A stretch of DNA of 24,136 bases from Cochliopodium minus (taxonomy: Eukaryota > Discosea > Himatismenida > Cochliopodiidae), in assembly GCA_024220525.1 (NCBI GenBank), contig JAMYWO010000464.1, forward strand, positions 1-24,136, given 5' to 3'. The notes under the pieces were generated by a model. The model was not told where the DNA came from and did not search any database. It saw nothing but the letters and a program-made list of their open reading frames with translations. How positions within the stretch are numbered: the stretch's first letter is position 1; each line of letters starts with the position of its first letter. Position numbers and translations under genes: made by a program. Of this stretch, positions 2,982 to 23,000 are shown piece after piece.

Positions 2982-5488
2982 TCAATTTGTCTTAGGTTCA
3001 TCATTCTCTTGAAATTTCTGCTTCAAATCATCAATCTGAAACTGCAAATCTTGTCTCATACCATAAATAGCTTGATCAAGGTAACTTATTTTTTGTTCTA
3101 AATAAGAGTTTTTGTTTTCGAGATCGGAAATAGAATCAATAGCTTTGTTATAGTTTTGTTTGAGGAAAAGAATCTCCTCTTTTAATTTTTGAGTTTTCAA
3201 TTTTCTTTTCTTTGCATTTTCGTCTATTTGTTTCATTTCAATGGGAGGATTTTTTTGGTTTCTTTTCTTGGAATTATTTTCTTTTCTGTTGGTGTTCTCA
3301 TTCTCTTCACTGTTGAAATTGTTGTCAAAATAATTATTTCCATCAATCGAAAAATTGTTGAAGCTTTTCTTTAAAGCAGTCTCGGGAGGAGCAACATAAA
3401 TTTTTTTGGAAGGTTGGTTTTGTAGAGAAGACCTTTTTTCTCTTGTGGACATTCGGGGTGAAGGAGAAAGCTTTCTAGTGCTTCTGGTAGCACGTTTAGG
3501 AACAACCTCTTTCTTTTCGGAAACTTCTTCGACAGTCTCATCCTCAACACTCTGATCTTCATTATTTTTGTTACCAACTTCTTCAGAAGAACTTTCATTC
3601 AAAGCATTATCTTCTTCAGATTTGTAAGTAATTTCTTGTCCTATAAAGTTAGGAACGGGAATGGCCAATAAAGATTGAAAAATATTTTTCGACACTTCTC
3701 CATCATTCAATTCTTTATTGTCGTTACACCAGTAAAAAAAATTTCTTAGTTCTTTCCAATAAGTAACTTTAGTAGGATTTTTAATAGAAGTATCCTCTAT
3801 TAAAAATTCTGAATAAGCAGTAAACCATTTTAACATATCACTGCCCTGATAAATGTCATAACCAATATTTACAACACCAAAAGTCTCAATGAGATAATTA
3901 AAGAATTTTCTTAAAGGAGACGTCTCGTTTGCTACTTTCATTTTGATGTTTTTCACTTTGGCTTCTTTCGCTTGTTCTATTTTGTGATCTATGAAATCTT
4001 GGAAGAAATCGCAGAAGGACGCTAGATCCAGTCTCCCTCTGGTCATAACTATGCTCCTTTTTTCTGTTTTTACGGGAGGAGATTTGATTTTTTTTGGGTT
4101 CTTTTCTTGTTCATCTAACTTTTTTTTTTTTTTTTGATAAAAACAAAATTGAATAAACAAAACATAATAGGAATTATAAAAACTAAAATTAACAAAAAAC
4201 AAAACTATAATTTAAAAATGAATAAAATTTTTTACCTCAAGAAAGTTTTTAGATGCAAGTTTTTGATCTGAAGAAAGTATTTTAAGGTGCTCCATATTTT
4301 CATTGTAATTTTCTTCCTCCTTGTCCAAGTTGTCGATGGCCCAGTAAAAAAACTTGGAGAGTTCGAAAGCGCAGTCACTTTTTTCCTTGTTACTTAAAAT
4401 AGATTGTTGAAAAAACTTTTCTAGAAGCTCCGAGAAGTTTTCTATGAAGTCCTCTGTCAGTGTTTCTTCTTCTAGTTCTTGTAACAAGAAGTTGAATGTT
4501 GGTGAAACTATTTTTGAGATTTCCTCGTTTTTTTTGAGCTTGGATTCTGTTGATCTGTACTTGATACTTTCTAGGTAAGTAGAAAAAAGAGGAAATGTAT
4601 CTATGTGTTCATCATTTTTCTCCTATGAATTCGATGAGAGAAATATAAATATTTTGAAAATATATTCAAGATCTGGATAAATTTATTTAAGAATGAGTAT
4701 GAGAGGAATGATTGATTTTAATCTAAAATTATATTTCTTAATATATATTCTTATGTTATTGAAATGGTAAATATATTTTCCATTATTCAAAAGGATATTT
4801 GTTTTAATTGAAGAATATGAAAATTATATGATATGGTTTGAAAAATTTTATTTCTCTCGAATCCAAAATTTCAAATTTCGTATAAATTATGAATATAAAC
4901 TAACCCAATCTTCAAATAATCCATTAATAATATAATCACTTACCTCATTATTTGTATTATCCATCTTTATTTCTTTTTTTGTCTTCATCAACCTTTCATC
5001 TAAAACTTTCTTCATCAAATTAATTTTTTCTTTCCTCTCCTTATTATCCTTTATCCCATCCCTGATATCATGCAACCAATTGAGAAAAGATAAGAGTTTC
5101 TTGATGAATATCATCTTTGTATTCTTCATCTTATCATTTTCGCAGAATTTAAGGCAAAATTCCTTGAAAATTTCAACTGTGTCCTCATTATCAAAATATT
5201 TCTCATCTATTTTGCTTATTTTCTTTTCTTTATTCAGATATTGAAGATATTTTTTTAACGGTGATATTTCCAGTCTTATTTTCGCTTTTATATTTGCATT
5301 CTGTCTACTTTCAAATTCTTTATTCTTGAAATCAATGTATCCCTGATAAAACGGGCTTATTTCACTCAATATCTTATCACGCTGTTTTTATTTATTGTTT
5401 CAAAAAAATATTTAAATTTTTTTTAATTTTTGATATAGAAAGGAAGGAATTAATATTAAAAAAAATTAGTTACATTCTTGATTATCAT
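2982..5488 (-). CDS. Uncharacterised protein with three copies of a novel domain and a C-terminal coiled coil (4 exons, 658 aa)
   Basis: Not recognised as any known family. Exons on the minus strand: 5488-5474 (tentative, MIIKN), 5381-4944, 4622-4236 and 4118-2982. All introns are phase 0; the total is 1977 nt. One domain of about 105 residues occurs three times, at about residues 14-125, 161-260 and 315-425, one per exon. Shared landmarks are an aromatic/Ile start (FYQGYIDFK; FSTYLESIK; FFQDFIDHK), then NIKxK(I/V)..E in copies 1 and 3, an SP dipeptide (45-46, 191-192, 347-348) before a hydrophobic helix, and an aromatic-Trp-acid signature (LNWLHD; FYWAID; FYWCND) with Trp at 107, 245 and 410. 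After copy 3 come an acidic stretch, a basic Ser/Arg-rich segment (about 450-500) that may be a nuclear signal, and a coiled coil at about 587-650. The helical (S/F)F.(N/Y)W ending is faintly like the core-binding domain of tyrosine recombinases, but that is speculation. The first 15-nt exon is the weakest part: the next exon has no usable ATG and begins at a CAG acceptor. Confidence 0.72.
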
Positions 5489-6047: not shown

Positions 6048-7798
6048 ATGAATGTTGGTGAAAAAAAAGAACAATATAAAGAAGGATCAACTTCGAGTTC
6101 ATTTTTCAATTTAACAAATACGTAAATTATTAAATTTAACAAATTCCCAAATTGACATTTGAACGGTTTAAAAGAATGTAAATCATTTAAAGCACTATAT
6201 GACATTATCTTTAATATCAATCTATATAAGAATAGGTGGAGGAATGTTGAGCTTACCTTATGCTATACAATTCTGTGGATTGATAAATGGAATCATATTG
6301 ATTGTGATATTTTCCTTCATATCTGGATATACATCACAATTGCTCATATTGGTTTACTTGAATGATAAAAGTAATGGAGATTCCTACATAGATTATTCGA
6401 AAAAGATATTTGGAGAAAATTTTGGAAAATATATTGCGAATATATCGATAATACTCTTTCATTTTGGACCACTGGTGGGTATAAAATTAATATTCTGATT
6501 TCTACAAATAAATCTCTTTCCAAAGCATATATAATTATAGTTTCAGATATATTCCATCTCTATATGAGCAGATTGATAATTGTCGACAAACGATTGTTGG
6601 GTAACCATTTTTGAATTTTATTTTTTTTGATAAACTTGAATCACTATATTAAAAAGCTTTTGTGATCACTGCATTCACTATGTATCCTCTCGTTAACCTC
6701 AAACAAATAAACGCACTAAGAATTACATCTATCATATCATTCATACTAATTATTTACAATTCACTTGTGATCTTCGTTAGATGTTTACAAAGTAAAACTA
6801 AAAAAAATTTATTAAATAAAAGATAATATAAATAAAAACAATAAATTAAAAAAGTTATAAAATCTGCAACATGGGATCCTCATGACATTGTTTATTTCGA
6901 TTTTAACATTCAAACATTGAGTTCGTTTTCCATCATTTCATTAGCTGTAACTTTTCAAGCGAATGTATTACCAGTTTTCAACGAAATGAGAAATCCTACA
7001 AAGAAAAATATTTATATAGCAATTTGGGGAGCAGTTTCTGTAAGTTATATTGTATATAGCGGAGTAGGATTGTTTGGATATTTAGCTTTTTTGGTGGGTA
7101 AAAAAATTTTCTTTTTTTTTATTATTTATTTATTATTATTTTTTTATAGATGTGAAAGACAATATTTTGCTTGAATTCAAAACAGACATCATCAATGATA
7201 TTTCAAGATTTTCTTTTTCATTCATTATTATCTTTTCTTATCCGGTCATGGCCTATCCAATTAGACAATCTTTGATCAACTTGTTCATATCTGATAAAAA
7301 CGCTGGGAAATTACCTATAACCATCTCTGCTTTATGTATCTATATATTTTCTTTTTTGTTGGCGATATCTGTACCTGGAATCGGTTTTGTATTTTCATTT
7401 ACAGGTATATAATTTTTTTCCTTTAGTCTTTTAAATTTAATTATCTTTATTAATAATTAAGGAGCAACTTCAGGTGTTATGGTAATTTTTAAAAAATAAA
7501 AAAAATTTATTTTCTAATTTTTTTTAATAAAAAAAAAAAAGATTGTTTTTATTCTTCCTTCCTTATTTTATTTACACCTAATTCCCCATCCCTCGGAAAT
7601 AGGTGGGAAACATCCTTGGTGGGTCTATAGATATTTTTCATACAACAAAATTGGATCTATTCTTGTATTAATAATTGGTTTGATTACTATGATAGGTAAT
7701 AAATAAACTATTTGTTATTAGTATTTTTAAAGAATTTTTTTTAAAAACTTTTTTATTTTTAAGGAGGAACATTTTCTGCTATTTATTCACTTTTTTGA
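6048..7798 (+). CDS. SLC38/AVT-type amino acid transporter (9 exons, 405 aa)
   Basis: Predicted multi-pass transporter for neutral or other amino acids, located in the plasma membrane or the vacuole/lysosome membrane (amino acid/auxin permease superfamily, SLC38/AVT branch). Exons: 6048-6121, 6231-6478, 6547-6600, 6657-6791, 6855-7097, 7150-7404, 7463-7482, 7542-7695 and 7764-7798. They total 1218 nt with all phases matching and a TGA stop. The family signature is clear at the first helix: FNLTNTIGGGMLSLPYAI. Also family-like are FVITAFTMYPL, the loop-helix with AVTFQANVLPVFNEMRNP, YPVMAYPIRQSL and a C-terminal helix ending in GGTFSAIY. About 10-11 hydrophobic helices are expected. The cytosolic N-terminus is only about 20 residues. 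At the second and fifth introns the donor must be the downstream GT of TGGTGGGTA, because the upstream GT leads to a stop or breaks the frame. Substrate and direction cannot be read from the sequence. Confidence 0.9.
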
Positions 7799-7829: not shown

Positions 7830-9836
7830 ATGAGAATTTTTTATACTTCTTGTATTCTTTATTTCTTCTTCATCCAATGTTTTATTGGATCAACTCAATC
7901 TTACAAGGATGCACGTAGCTATTGCCAACCTGAATCATATGAAATACCGATCTTGAATAATCCTGATCTTCGATTATCGATGGTGCAATTGATTACTAGA
8001 CATGGTAATTACTCATGATTTTCAAAAGTTCATTCACAAAAAAATCTTTGGATCTTTAAAAATAAAAATAAATAAAATTGGAGAAAGATATAAGAATAAT
8101 ATACAATCCATAAATACCCCTTCATTAAACAAAAATACATATTTTATTATTTGTTTTTGATATTTATTTTTTATTTTTATTTTTTTAGCTGAATTGACTT
8201 TTAAATATTTAATTTTGAAATGATTTACAGGAGATAGATTGCAAAGTTCATTGATTTCACCTGATCCAAGCTTCAGATTGTATTGGAACACTTGCCAAAC
8301 AGAATATTCCACCACAAAAGATAACAACTTTAACTTTTACAAGAAATATCTCATAGATGCTTCTCTTGGTAATCCACAATCACTCTTGGGTCCATGTTCT
8401 TTTGGATTGTTGACTACAAAAGGATCTGAACAAATGAAAAAAGTTGGAAAATCGTTAAGAAATGTAAAACAAGTTTATTTTAAATTATTTTATTTTATTA
8501 TATTTCTATCATATTTTTTTAATTTTATTATTTTTATGATGTTTTTATTTTAGACTTATATTGATAAATATGGATTTTTGAGTTCTAATCCACAAAATTT
8601 TGAGGATCAAATATGGGTTAGAAGTTCAGATTATGAGAGAACGCTCAATTCTGCATATTATGTTTTATCTGAACTTTATCCGTCCAATAACACTTCTTCT
8701 GGAAGAATTCCAATTCCTATCCATGTAAAAAACAAATAAAAAATGATAATTCGATAAATAATTAAAACAAATCAGAAACCAAAGAAAAAAATAAAAAACA
8801 AAAAAATAAAAAAATAAATATAAAAATAAAAAACAAATAATATTTGAATGAATATATTTTTTTGTAGGTTTTACCTGCAAGTGATGAAAATTTAACTCCA
8901 AACAGAATCATTTGTCCAAAAATAGATGTATTTCAAGAACAAATCGAAAATTACGCAGCTTACAAGAACTATTTTGCCAAACTAACAGGATTGGAAGACA
9001 CTCTCAAAAGAGTTTTGAAGTGGGGCAACATCACTTGGTACAATTTGGAAGATCCTTTTATTTGTAGAATTTGCAGCAACAGAGAAATGCCAACTGGTAT
9101 TCAATTTTTTTAATTTTTTTTTTTTAAAATAAAAGATTCTTTTTTTTTTCAAGGAATAACACAAGAAATGGCTGAACAAATTTTTGAAGCAGCTTTGTTT
9201 ATCGGAAATTTATATGAGAGGTTTCAAATTTCATTACTTTATTTTAGATTTTTAACATTTTTTTTTTTAAAAGTTTTAAAGAAGGTTTGATTTTAGAATC
9301 TGCTCCCTTTTTGGGAGAACTAATGTTGAACATTGAAAAAAGAATGCACGCAGTCAACATGCCTCGTTTTATTTATTATTCTGCACACGACATTACTGTA
9401 AAAACAACCTCAAGTTTTATTTTATATCTTTTTATTTTTCCTTTCTTAGATTTCACCAATCATAACTGCACTTGGTTTTCCCCAAGCTCTGAATTGGCCT
9501 CCATATTGTAAATTTTTTTTATTTCAATTTATATTTCAATCTAATTCTTTTTTTTTTTTTTTAATCAAAAAAAGCATCTCAATTAATTTTTGAAACTTGG
9601 CAAACTATTTCTACTTCTGAATATTTAACAAGGTAAAAATGATTTATTTTTATTTGATTATTTTAAATTATTTTTTTGAATTTTAAAAAAAAAGATTTAT
9701 TTACAATGGAGAAGTGGTGAGTTTGCCTTCTTGTACTAAATATCCAGGTCTTTGCACATTTACAGAATTACAAAATTTGGTTTCAGGAATAGCAATGGAT
9801 AAGAACCAATACAAACAATTTTGTGATCAAAAATAA
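7830..9836 (+). CDS. Secreted or lysosomal histidine acid phosphatase (9 exons, 418 aa)
   Basis: Predicted histidine-type (branch 2) acid phosphatase that hydrolyses phosphomonoesters through a phosphohistidine intermediate. Exons: 7830-8004, 8231-8463, 8554-8724, 8868-9096, 9154-9220, 9274-9397, 9450-9507, 9575-9632 and 9695-9836. They total 1257 nt with all phases matching and a TAA stop. Residues 1-23 form a hydrophobic signal peptide. The catalytic RHGDR motif is at 57-61 and is split by the first intron. A conserved VRSSDYERTLNSA block follows, and the proton-donor HD pair lies in SAHDIT at 330-331. N-glycosylation sequons such as NNTS, NLT and NIT fit passage through the secretory pathway. 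There is no C-terminal membrane helix, so a soluble lysosomal or secreted enzyme is most likely. The length matches prostatic and lysosomal acid phosphatases (about 420 aa). Its ATG lies only 31 bp after the stop of the transporter on the same strand. Confidence 0.93.
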
Positions 9837-9914
9837 AATTCGTTAAAAATGTTTTCTTTTTTTTTTTTTTTTTTTGAAAATTTTTTTGTTAATAAAATAA
9901 AAAAATAAGTTTAA

Positions 9915-16616: not shown

Positions 16617-16720
16617 TTTATTGTGTTTATCAAAGATATTTCTCAAATCTAAATCAATTAAAGATAGCTTGATAAAATATAAAAATAAATAAAAAAAAAT
16701 TCTGTTTATCTTTATGGATA
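16585..16720 (+). repeat. Left direct repeat (LTR-like or promoter repeat)
   Basis: This 136-bp segment starts TGTTGTTACC and ends on ATGGATA. It is repeated in the same orientation at 18922-19086. Long blocks match, for example AAAGATATTTCTCAAATCTA and AGCTTGATAAAATATAAA. The copy includes the start codon of the Gag-like ORF at 16714. It could be a short LTR or a duplicated promoter/leader. Confidence 0.75.
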
Positions 16721-18909
16721 AGGGTACAGAGGGCATTTCTGGGCTTGAGGATTCAACAAATACACAACATGTTATAACACGTATTAATTCAAATAATGAG
16801 CTCAATAACATCGTAGATGAATCAGGCAGTAATACATCTGTGGAGAAGAATATACCTGAGGCATATTCTTCTCAAATACATGTTAATAAAAAAAGAGAAA
16901 GTGAAGAAGATAATTCATCTGATGATATCTCGAGATCTCCAATCAAGAAAAGGGAAGATCAAGAGGATGATTCAAGTGAGATTTCAAACAATATCACAGA
17001 GATTCAAAATCACCGCGGTGAGAAGGTATCTGTGGATTTGAATATTAAATCTGATGAAGATAATCAGGATAATGATGTTATAAAATTGAAAAATCTATAT
17101 CTGCAAAAACAATATGAACATACTTTAGAACAGGACAAACAGTTGTATCTCCAGGTCAAGAGTATGGCTGAGGAAAACAAAAGTATCAAGGAGATTTCTA
17201 AGCAGCTTCAATCTGTTACTGAAATACAACAGAAGAAGTTGGTGTTGTTGCAAGAGAAGGTTGACAGTGCGAATTTAGAGAACGAGAAAATGAGACATGA
17301 TAAATTGGTTTTCTCTCAAGAGTTAGAGAAATATAAGAAGGAGCAGAAAGAGAAAAAGAAGAAGAGGAAAGAAATAAGTGAAGATAATCAAACGAGGTTT
17401 TTTAAAATGTTTGAAGAACAAAAGTTGATAGCGGAGAAGTTGGAGAAAAAGCTGGATGAACTAACTCAACGTAACAAACTTCTACAACAGGTACAGTTGG
17501 AACTGGAACAGAAACTTCATAAAGTGCAACAGTCTCAACAAGTGGGGCAGTCTCAACAGGAACAGATTCTACAGGAACAGATGTTTTTTCTGGAAGATTC
17601 TACAGACACTCCAAAAGTGGAAGAAGTGACTTCTGAAATGGACAATAAGTTGTTGAAACTTATCAATAAACAGCTTAAGGAGAAGTTGAGAATTTCTGAG
17701 GAGTCTTTCATGCGAGGATTTGATGAGTTTAACAAAATTATGTTAAAGATGGAAGAAGATAGAAATAAGAATAAGATAGCCTTGGAAAAAGAAAATAAAG
17801 ATTTGAGACGCGAAAGAGAACAGGATAGGTTACAACTGCAAAAAGATAGGAATGAGATGTTGAAGGATTTCAAGAATATTAGTTTTTCAACACCCAAACC
17901 GGTGGTTCTTGAAGAAGTGAATCGTCGTGTGGAAGTGTTAAAAGATGATAAATACAAGTTTTGTTTAACTGGTGGAGATAACACTTTCAAGTTTGAAGTC
18001 AACTTTGGATCGTGTTCTTACAGAGTTGATAAGAAAGTATCTCTCAAGAAGAATTCTCTGTGTTTTGAATCAGTTGGGAGGAAGGTAACCGAAGATTTTC
18101 TTCATTTCCTCTCTTTGTGGAAAAGAGAGATTGAATCAAACTCTTTCGATCAGACTACCTCTTTCTGGTTGTTGCAGATGAACTGCGAGAAGAATGCGAA
18201 TGCTACAATCAGTGGGTCAAAGACACTTGGAGAAGCTCTTTCTTTGCTGGTCACGCAGAATGTCTCCAAGGACAATATGGTACACATGAGAATGAAGCTT
18301 GCTGGTTTCAAACAAGAAAATTACGAAGAATTACCTATGTGGTTGGATAAGTTGTTGGAATTTTCACAATTTTTTGTAGATCTCAAACATGAAGAGCTAT
18401 TCAAGATATTTGTGGATGGTCTACATAGAAATTTCTCTCAACATCATGCTATTGCCTTGAAAAATCTTTCTCCTGAAACTCCTCTCGTTGAACAGAGAAA
18501 ATCATTGTATTATTTGAAGTGGCCTTCCAATCAAGATTTCCAGAATAGTCGTGGTGGTCTCTCTAACAGCTTTGGTTCTTCAATCAATACAAATTCCAAT
18601 CAAAGTTCGTCTGGTAGCAATAGAGAGAGTAGAAACAGAAGAGAAAACAATCGTGGTGGTAGCTCGAATAATAACAGTAGAGGAGGAAGTTCCAATAATC
18701 AAAGTAATGGGAGTGTTAACAACTCAAGAAGTAATGTCCCTAATTCTCAATGGACAAGTGATTTAGAGAAACTGAGGGATAACAGAAAATTCACGCAGTG
18801 TTTTATGGAGCAACATCCGAGTGGGGTTTCCAAATATCTTCAAGAATTTGAAAAGAAATATCCAAGTAACAAGAAAGGAATTTCTAAAAACAAGAAATCG
18901 AAGAAGTAG
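16714..18909 (+). CDS. Intronless coiled-coil protein with a Gag-like domain (731 aa)
   Basis: Residues 1-125 are acidic and Ser/Asn-rich. Residues of about 125-400 are a long Gln/Glu/Lys-rich coiled coil. Residues of about 420-610 look like a retrotransposon Gag capsid domain: FLHFLSLWKREI, then a helix with LLVTQNVSKDNMVHMRMKL, a DKLLEFSQFFVDLKHEELFK block, and the FVDGL pattern that usually closes Ty3/Gypsy-type Gag. The tail (about 610-731) is basic with RGG, Asn and Ser repeats and ends in a Lys-rich stretch. No CCHC zinc knuckle is present, so nucleic-acid binding would rest on the RGG/basic tail. The start codon lies inside the left direct repeat and the stop is 12 bp before the right one. 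It may be a self-assembling Gag of a non-autonomous element or a domesticated Gag. The Gag call rests on motif spacing only. Confidence 0.65.
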   Translation: MDKGTEGISGLEDSTNTQHVITRINSNNELNNIVDESGSNTSVEKNIPEAYSSQIHVNKKRESEEDNSSDDISRSPIKKREDQEDDSSEISNNITEIQNHRGEKVSVDLNIKSDEDNQDNDVIKLKNLYLQKQYEHTLEQDKQLYLQVKSMAEENKSIKEISKQLQSVTEIQQKKLVLLQEKVDSANLENEKMRHDKLVFSQELEKYKKEQKEKKKKRKEISEDNQTRFFKMFEEQKLIAEKLEKKLDELTQRNKLLQQVQLELEQKLHKVQQSQQVGQSQQEQILQEQMFFLEDSTDTPKVEEVTSEMDNKLLKLINKQLKEKLRISEESFMRGFDEFNKIMLKMEEDRNKNKIALEKENKDLRREREQDRLQLQKDRNEMLKDFKNISFSTPKPVVLEEVNRRVEVLKDDKYKFCLTGGDNTFKFEVNFGSCSYRVDKKVSLKKNSLCFESVGRKVTEDFLHFLSLWKREIESNSFDQTTSFWLLQMNCEKNANATISGSKTLGEALSLLVTQNVSKDNMVHMRMKLAGFKQENYEELPMWLDKLLEFSQFFVDLKHEELFKIFVDGLHRNFSQHHAIALKNLSPETPLVEQRKSLYYLKWPSNQDFQNSRGGLSNSFGSSINTNSNQSSSGSNRESRNRRENNRGGSSNNNSRGGSSNNQSNGSVNNSRSNVPNSQWTSDLEKLRDNRKFTQCFMEQHPSGVSKYLQEFEKKYPSNKKGISKNKKSKK

Positions 18910-20047: not shown

Positions 20048-23000
20048 CTATCAGTTTTGCGAATTGACTATATCTCCCCAAAATATCTAATTTTTCTATC
20101 ATTACTAAGGTGAACTCTGATCGGTTGAGAAAGTATTGAACCACTTTGTATCTTTCTGTTTCGAAGGTATCTGTGGAGAGTTTGTGAGACCATTTGGTGG
20201 AGAGACTCTCATTGGAGAAGTAAGGGATTCTGTGATGTAGAATATGAAACACTGAATTTTCAAAGTTATAATTATCCAATGACAATTCTTTTAATTTAAA
20301 AAAACAAAAATTGAAAAAAAAAATTGAAAAATAAAATTGAAAAAAATATTAAGAATAAAATAAAATAAAATAAAATAAAATTATCAATAGTTTAATATGT
20401 GGAATATTCAAACACAACAAAAAGATAATTAATATGTAGAAAAAATTTAAAATAGAGAAAGAAAAATTCTTTAATTTTTTTTAAAAATCAAAAATTTTAT
20501 TTTTTTAAAAAATTTTTTACCTTTTCTAATCGTCCTCCATAAATCAATCAATAATCTCCCAGTTATGGTATCCATCAAACCCTTTTTCTTTTTCCATTTG
20601 AAATTGAATTCATCCTCTTTCAAGGTCTGAAACTCATTGTTGAAATAAGAATCAACCCTGCTGATTCTCTGCGAAACGTTTATCTGGAGAACTTTGCCCC
20701 TCTCTAACAAGTAATTCAAAGTGGAATGGAGATCATAATTGACAATGACATCTGGGTCGAAATATTTCATCCGTTCAAAAAACTTTTCGAAAAGAAGAAT
20801 TTCGGTTTCTACAAGATGGAAATCGATTTTTTTGTTGTAAATCCCATAAAAAGACTTCCAAGCAAGTTTTGGATCACTTTGATCGAAATCGTTCACACAT
20901 ATGAAACCAGAGTGATGCTCATACTCTTTCCCCATTATTTCTTCAATGTTCTCGTCGTGGATCGTGTAAAACAAAGCAACTATGGGAGAAGTTTTAGGGT
21001 TTGGAAGTTTCTTGGTGGTTGTTGGGGAAAATATTTGGAAAGACAGAACAGTGAAATGATTGCTGGCTTTTTTAGTTTTGTTGGTGTAATCTTCACTTGA
21101 AAAATGATACTTGAACTGATTTTTTTGGTTTGGGAACGAAGCTGTTTCGATTTGGGTTTTCAGCAATACTCTCCTCGGAGATTCGACAGAAACGTCGCGT
21201 GACAGTTGAGAATCAGCCAACGAAGAAAGGGAAGGAGGTGATTCAGTGGGAGTGTAATACTTTTTGTTGTCCATAAAACTCTTGAAATGAAATAAATCAT
21301 CCAATGTCTTTTCTTCATTGTGAGAAAATTGCGGAAAATTGTCATGGAACAAGTTTGACTTTGGAGGGCTTTGGGAGAAAGTATAGTACTTTTTTTTGTT
21401 TGAATCAAGGCTAATTTCTGCCAGTTTGAGTTTTTTAGGAGGAGAAATGATATCTTCGATATCAATCTCTTTGTTCTTCTTGACTGGAGTAGTTAATGGA
21501 GTAATATCTTGTGAAAGAACGGTCTTAGTAGTCTCGGGAGTGGAAAACTTGGTTTGTTGATAATCATCATTAATTTCATTTTTTTCTTCTTCAATCTCCA
21601 TTTTCTCCTCAACATCACTTTTGTCACTCTCTTCTCCAGAATTGGATTTATCACAAAGAATATTGTCTTCGTCTTGACTATCTTGATTGGCAGACCTAAT
21701 AATATCCTCACACTCTAAATTATAATTTTCTTCATTATTTCCTTCGATTTCATTGTCTTCACTCTCCGATCCATCAAGCATCCACTCCAAGTCTTTCAAG
21801 GTTTCGAGATCTTCCTTCTGAGTAAGAATCATATCTTCATTTACGTCCATATCTCCTCTCTTATTATTTCCTTCATTAAATTCGTTGAATATTTTTTCTT
21901 TCATTTGTGAAGATAAATCAAGATTAGATGGGAAAAAATTATCTATTTTTTGTTTTTTTTCCAATTTGTTTTTGTGGTTCTTCATCAATAAACTTTCTTT
22001 CGTAATTACTCTCTCCAATTTTTTCTTCCATTTTTCTTCGGTCTCTACAAAGGGAATTGTTTCAGGTCTTACCTGACTGACAGGAGTTTTGAATGATGGC
22101 ATAAACTCTACTTTCCTCTTCTTTTCTTCATCGTATAGTATTTTCAAAGATTGGATGTGAACAGTTTCATCTTTTTCCTTTACGTTCAAAATATCTCCTA
22201 TCTGTGCATCAATCTCAATATCACTAAATCCATATTTTTGAAGATTACTTTTTTGAAACAAAAATTTTATTTTTATAAAAATCATCAATTAAAAAAAAAA
22301 TTACTTTTCTTCATAGTTTAAGCTTCCAGTTTTATTAATAAAATGATCATTCAGATTATCATCATTGGAAAACTTTATTTCTATCTCTTTGGTATTCCAC
22401 ATTATCTTCTTGATTTGTGTAGGAATTCTCCTAAAAGTTGCTTTGGAAAGTTTAATTTGTGACATTCCATACAAATTGTGATCGATGAACAACTTCATTA
22501 AAAAAGGAATGTGAGCTTCATATACCACAAATTCAGTGCCTAATATCGCTCCGCTCCTAAGAACTTCCACAATCTTCTGAAAATGGTGAGGATTATACAA
22601 GAAGAGTTGTAAATATAATTTTTCAGAAGGAGCAAAACCATAAATAGGAGTTCCTTTTACAATCTTTTTTTTTTGATAAATATATTTTTATAAATTCGTG
22701 GAATAAATTTATTATTATTTTTTTTTATAATTTCACCGAAATATGGAAGATATATTGTTTTATTCTTGATTTTGGATAAACTATTTCCATCGCTTTCTCT
22801 ATTGATGTGTTTAATTTTTGGCAATAAGCATTTATATTCTCTTCTTTGGGATAATCTATGTAAAAGTAAGGAAATGCTTTATGTAGATGACATAATACCT
22901 TTTCTCCATTCGATGTTGTTCCCCATATTCTTACCACAGGTATCTGATTTACTGCTGTACCCGTAAATGATGAATATATCACGTCATGATCTTTATTGGG

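Follow-up and report, generated by a model that had tools for sequence, protein, structure and literature searches.

A repeated domain in a protein family of Cochliopodium minus is probably related to the core-binding domain of tyrosine recombinases

Here we describe a gene on the minus strand (2982..5488) of a 24,136-nucleotide stretch of DNA from Cochliopodium minus, referred to below as the window, which is the entire contig JAMYWO010000464.1 (C449) of a 44.65-Mb assembly of 598 contigs (GCA_024220525.1). The gene would encode a protein of 658 residues in which a domain of ~105 residues occurs three times ahead of a coiled coil, and profile comparisons make it likely that this domain is kin to the core-binding (CB) domain of tyrosine recombinases. 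An earlier note on this DNA had treated the domain as an isolated unknown; instead, it is one of 37 distinct copies collected from seven contigs (C449, C58, C34, C3, C142, C132 and C358), both counts being lower bounds from genome searches with single members and a profile search of fetched stretches. The reading we favour, with moderate confidence, is that a CB-derived domain without its enzyme was multiplied and joined to a coiled coil in what the sequence suggests to be a multivalent binder.

Results

The central claim of the earlier note, three copies of one domain with each in its own exon, is confirmed by pairwise comparison and by an independent profile. The copies lie at 5049..5369 (copy 1), 4314..4607 (copy 2, the most diverged) and 3702..4025 (copy 3), all on the minus strand. 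Copies 3 and 1 align with 29% identity over 109 columns (E=7e-11), and copy 2 is weak in such comparisons (E=0.004 over 41 residues with copy 3, E=0.87 with copy 1). A profile grown from relatives on C58 and C3 with the window left out (36 rows, 34 distinct), run on 549 open reading frames (ORFs) at Z=10000, finds copy 1 with E=3.2e-16, copy 3 with E=1.7e-15 and copy 2 with E=1.5e-5, each copy covering nearly the whole profile (positions 3-102 of 103 for copy 2). Apart from the profile's own members, the remaining rows at E<5 are another part of the C34 frame and a C3 copy broken into two pieces; the same 549 ORFs reversed give no match to this profile. When copy 2 alone was searched against the whole genome, the top non-self match was a family member at C3:201053-201415 (E=0.0094), and on this and the profile match a chance look-alike was rejected. 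The spacing from the Pro of an SP dipeptide to a Trp (61, 53 and 62 residues in copies 1, 2 and 3) holds as described; across 20 family members this Trp is near-invariant (at least 90%), and the SP dipeptide is not.

The tie to recombinases, which the note had raised as a possible match to SAM-like core-binding domains, is given by profile-profile alignment and by comparison of consensus sequences with Pfam. We used HHalign to compare the family with the N-terminal domains of two panels built from different seeds, one of 90 Xer-type proteins and one of 18 Bacteroidetes-type integrases that includes a gene on contig C163. The family profile has 39 rows, 37 of them distinct, two rows from stretch L155 that repeat stretch L020 being kept here and dropped for the tree below; a second C34 copy (E=0.62) and the two pieces of the broken C3 copy stand outside the count of 37. 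Against the Xer-type domains the family scores 87.2% (P=3.9e-6) over the whole domain, with positions 15-111 on 5-91 of 104, and against the Bacteroidetes-type domains 84.8% (P=6.5e-6) over the second half of the domain only, while the combined panel gives 90.3% over the whole domain. The C3 subset reaches 91.9% with the Bacteroidetes-type panel, again over the whole domain, and 94.6% (P=6.6e-8) with the combined panel. Controls with catalytic parts or reversed profiles score 0.0-0.6%; for scale, the two recombinase panels score 96.6% against each other. None of 300 column permutations in the Xer-type test, and none of 200 in the Bacteroidetes-type test, scored as high as the observed alignment.

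A model built from recombinases only places family members at all of ranks 1-18 among the 549 ORFs. Because most of these ORFs are short chance frames, the test was redone on the 126 of at least 100 residues that are left after deduplication, 35 of which belong to the family; all 19 frames reported are family members (P=2.6e-13). The family consensus matches Phage_int_SAM_5 best among Pfam families (E=4.3e-4, 21.0 bits against a cut-off of 22.3, positions 3-95 on 1-81 of 98), and SAM-type families make up four of the seven that it matches. Copy 3 has a best Phage_int_SAM score of 20.2 bits, against the same cut-off of 22.3. When 20 members were compared with all 24736 Pfam families, SAM-type integrase families were the most recurrent (at least 3 of the 30 families matched), and they account for 2 of the 10 matched by 16 further members. 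Xer recombinase families in NCBIfam are 3 of the 12 matched by the same 20 members and 0 of the 3 matched by the other 16. Reversed, the 20 members match no SAM-type family among 14 in Pfam and no Xer family among seven in NCBIfam.

The CB domain of tyrosine recombinases is built on a four-helix plan, and the AlphaFold2 model of copy 3 (with the other two copies) looks compatible with it in helix order, with helices at residues 14-29, 35-57, 64-67 (short), 70-85 and 92-110. This model has a predicted local distance difference test score (pLDDT) of 77.5 and a predicted template modelling score (pTM) of 0.70. The model of copy 1 is poor (pLDDT 60.7, pTM 0.41) and has a helix order like that of copy 3. 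A profile search of the PDB gave a best E of 0.4, and phmmer with the consensus a single match with E 0.84.

Several results weigh against kinship with recombinases. No family reaches its curated Pfam cut-off, just as the earlier note had expected of a domain with no known Pfam match. Among the other consensus rows of the five compared, that for C3 has SAM-type families as 3 of 11 but IF-2B first, that for the window has 2 of 3 with GNAT_acetyltran marginally first, and the two remaining rows match no SAM-type Pfam family. Foldseek and VIA-align show no recombinase among the matches listed for the models of copies 3 and 1, the latter model being too poor to weigh. Single-sequence E-values from the recombinase-only model are poor, the best being 1.9e-4 with ten below 1. 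A narrow panel of 81 close XerD relatives gives 28.5% with 14 family rows and 19.7% with 39, and here the family scores much the same circularly shifted as in its native order. Subsets are uneven: with panels in the order Xer, Bacteroidetes and combined, the window copies alone score 63.8, 56.4 and 82.4%, the C142 copies 50.4, 8.1 and 34.1%, and the window, C58, C34 and C358 copies together 81.5, 18.3 and 86.0%. Two of five subsets (non-window and C142) are displaced by one helical hairpin in their alignment with the Xer-type panel, and an arrangement with helices 3-4 placed before 1-2 scores 41.8 against 33.9, the native order being 8th of 120. With the Bacteroidetes-type panel the register is native in all six query sets, with whole-domain coverage in the C3 set only. 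The two similar hairpins of the CB fold may explain this ambiguity.

The competing registers, the fold searches with no recombinase among the matches listed and the failure of every individual library match to reach its curated cut-off would also suit a lineage-specific helical bundle of no recombinase descent, whose matches reflect a common amphipathic-helix pattern ending T...L..F..W. Such a pattern sits poorly with the column permutations and with reversed members that match no SAM-type or Xer family; moreover, two differently seeded recombinase panels both match, and SAM-type families recur most among the 24736 and come first for the family consensus. We consider this explanation rather unlikely. 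With the weak subsets weighed in, kinship with the CB domain is judged likely, and the fuller reading is given moderate confidence.

The catalytic half of a tyrosine recombinase (PF00589) is matched twice in the genome, once on C163 and once on C18, and not on C449 or any other contig of the family. The first lies in a Bacteroidetes-like stretch (C163:1-9500, L058), where the integrase frame accompanies frames that we take to encode a TonB-type receptor and a ThiF-like protein; this bacterial-looking DNA probably came into the assembly as contamination or from a bacterial partner. A search of viral contigs with the C163 integrase found no relative. The second (L059 1845-4840) belongs to what is presumably a DIRS-type retroelement, which has one frame for reverse transcriptase and one for tyrosine recombinase; beside it are frames that appear to us to carry Sel1-like repeats. 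The C18 recombinase was considered as the source of the domain and discarded, with an HHalign score of 4.5%. DUF3504 gave no match here, in a search that gave none in control genomes either, and the same is true of NDC10_II.

Could the family itself be mobile, its arrays being copies of an element that encodes the protein? The high copy number fits, as does a retroelement-like ORF in the same window (16693-18909, plus strand). This frame of 738 residues begins with a coiled coil and has no Pfam match, and its second region is, we presume, gag-like. A copy 92% identical over the residues tested (C4:254231-255028) lies within a 1540-residue frame, so the window frame is probably a piece of a retroelement; it has no tblastn match to C18 at E 10. 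Most members of the domain family, however, are just 13-29% identical to copy 3, those in the window, C58 and C358 are read with introns, and PF00589 is confined to C163 and C18. Within the fetched stretches, where flanks were inspected, we regard a mobile-element protein as highly improbable.

Family members form arrays on C3 and C142, and the window gene sits outside both. The C3 array (~170-205 kb) consists mostly of single-domain genes, several of which carry, as judged by eye, a charged linker, a coiled-coil-like stretch and a Pro/Gln/Asn-rich tail. Long N runs interrupt this region (L018 ~8378-9901 and L019 1-~2343) and may hide extra members, and the family copy at L019 7722-8368 is broken across two frames, perhaps as a decaying gene. 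On C142 (L022, L023 and L147) two domain subtypes alternate in adjacent frames, and in the tree each subtype has a branch of its own with five copies (supports 99/96 and 98/99). This alternation looks as if each gene held one copy of either subtype. By inspection, a phase-0 join of two domain exons is possible on both C58 and C358, the second C358 exon starting with ATG and being possibly a gene of its own.

Arrays of this kind, together with non-basic copies 2 and 3, might point to a protein-recognition module, of whatever ancestry, in a diversifying multigene family serving self-recognition, immunity or host interaction. In three adjacent C3 genes (L018 4369-7830) synonymous divergence (dS) is ~0.07 in the tails against 0.67-1.29 in the domains, which also speaks for that explanation; the near-identical tails were probably homogenised by gene conversion. 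The ratio of nonsynonymous to synonymous divergence (dN/dS) in the domain is 0.18-0.44 in all six pairs of four C3 genes, a rough estimate with dS above 1 in five of the six pairs. Since every pair stays below 1, no positive selection is evident, and the window gene lies away from the arrays. A recognition module seems improbable, though less so than a mobile-element protein.

Exon duplication within the gene was proposed in the earlier note as the origin of the three copies. The 37-row tree does not group the window copies, whereas it groups the two C58 copies (96/90). The path from copy 3 to either C58 copy is shorter than its path to copy 1, copy 2 is the longest end branch, and good support is limited to 3 of the 34 inner branches. 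In approximately unbiased tests a window clade (p=0.295), a pairing of copies 1 and 3 (p=0.387) and a clade that joins both C58 copies to copy 3 (p=0.526) are none of them rejected. Because the window copies form no clade, yet a clade is not rejected, duplication within the gene is no more than possible as the source.

The gene model, drawn from sequence alone and placed on the minus strand, which the earlier note had left unstated, splices 5488-5474, 5381-4944, 4622-4236 and 4118-2982 into four exons, each of a length divisible by three, which yield 658 codons and a stop with no internal stop. The introns of 92, 321 and 117 bp are all GT..AG and in phase 0, the phase claimed in the earlier note. 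Exon 1 (5474..5488) is the least certain, with its start codon and five residues placed by inspection from an ATG and a GT donor only. Exon 2 (4944..5381) holds copy 1, exon 3 (4236..4622) holds copy 2, and exon 4 (2982..4118) runs from copy 3 through a charged linker and a coiled coil to the stop. The low-complexity linker (3234..3698) is acidic and then basic in 30-residue blocks of net charge, the most basic 30 residues lying at ~3429-3518. A 35-residue piece 76% identical to its acidic part, with an internal stop, was seen at C344:938-1039 (L005). The coiled coil (3009..3191, best 42-residue stretch 3066-3191) stands at the protein end as described, with a heptad contrast of 0.72 in the last 75 residues that none of 1000 shuffles matched. 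The model is weakest at its short first exon and at an A-run ahead of the last acceptor, and it might, in principle, have joined exons of separate genes or a pseudogene. Such an error is very hard to reconcile with one frame of 658 codons across three phase-0 GT..AG introns, and the C58 and C358 domain exons can likewise be joined.

In the window the gene is flanked by a frame with a RabGAP-TBC match (1176-1394) and a frame with an amino acid transporter match (6172-6498). Further along, at 20471-22288 on the minus strand, a 605-residue frame carries the exonuclease domain of a family B DNA polymerase. The window is AT-rich, and its genes look split into exons, as in eukaryotes.

Discussion

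We propose that the domain is distantly related to the CB domain, the N-terminal SAM-like, DNA-gripping half of tyrosine recombinases, without the catalytic half. It would have become a phase-0 exon module that was multiplied within genes (three here, two in genes that can be read on C58 and C358, pairs on C142) and also between genes, to 37 copies on seven contigs. If the coiled coil dimerises, three modules per chain would give a dimer with six, and the protein may act as a multivalent binder, probably of nucleic acid or chromatin. Net charge is +5, -10 and -2 in copies 1, 2 and 3, and is positive in 28 of the 39 family rows; the CB domains of the two recombinase panels average +4.0 and +4.3. 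Because charges differ among the copies, copy 1 would be the likeliest to contact DNA, and copy 2 might rather contact protein.

More tentatively, and with the balance close to even, the lineage may have excised the DNA-gripping domain of a recombinase and used it as a phase-0 exon module to assemble a multivalent coiled-coil family, with one to three modules per protein. This would be domestication by domain repetition, unlike the Crypton-derived genes, which keep the recombinase region. If true, it would be a new route from the DNA-binding part of a mobile element to a host protein, by repeating the clamp domain alone, and a domain that escapes the curated libraries would gain a probable identity. 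The series of one, two and three modules would offer natural material on DNA binding by stand-alone CB domains.

The MRG domain (MRG15, Eaf3) may resemble recombinases, a resemblance that no paper listed in the open-access searches states. Nor did the titles listed there show a eukaryotic family of repeated CB-like domains alone. The CB domains closest to that of the window (Phage_int_SAM_5, SAM_4 and SAM_1; those of Bacteroidetes-type integrases and Xer) are like it in length, in profile and in a T...L..F..W-like last helix; the window protein differs from recombinases in having its domain repeated, fused to a coiled coil, without a catalytic domain and below curated cut-offs. According to PMC8138268, the CB domain of recombinases binds the recombination site, and the RitA recombinases have two CB domains in sequence in each protein. 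RitA proteins are bacterial recombinases on transposable elements, whereas in the window protein, with its three CB-like domains, a catalytic domain was not found. In eukaryotes, the Crypton-derived DUF3504 genes (KCTD1, ZMYM2/3/4, QRICH1 and WOC) and yeast Gcr1 and Cbf2 are described in PMC3212892 as recombinase-derived and non-catalytic, with DNA-binding or protein-binding roles proposed for the Crypton-derived domains. Those genes keep a recombinase-type region (DUF3504), whereas the family described here is marked by a repeated CB-like domain.
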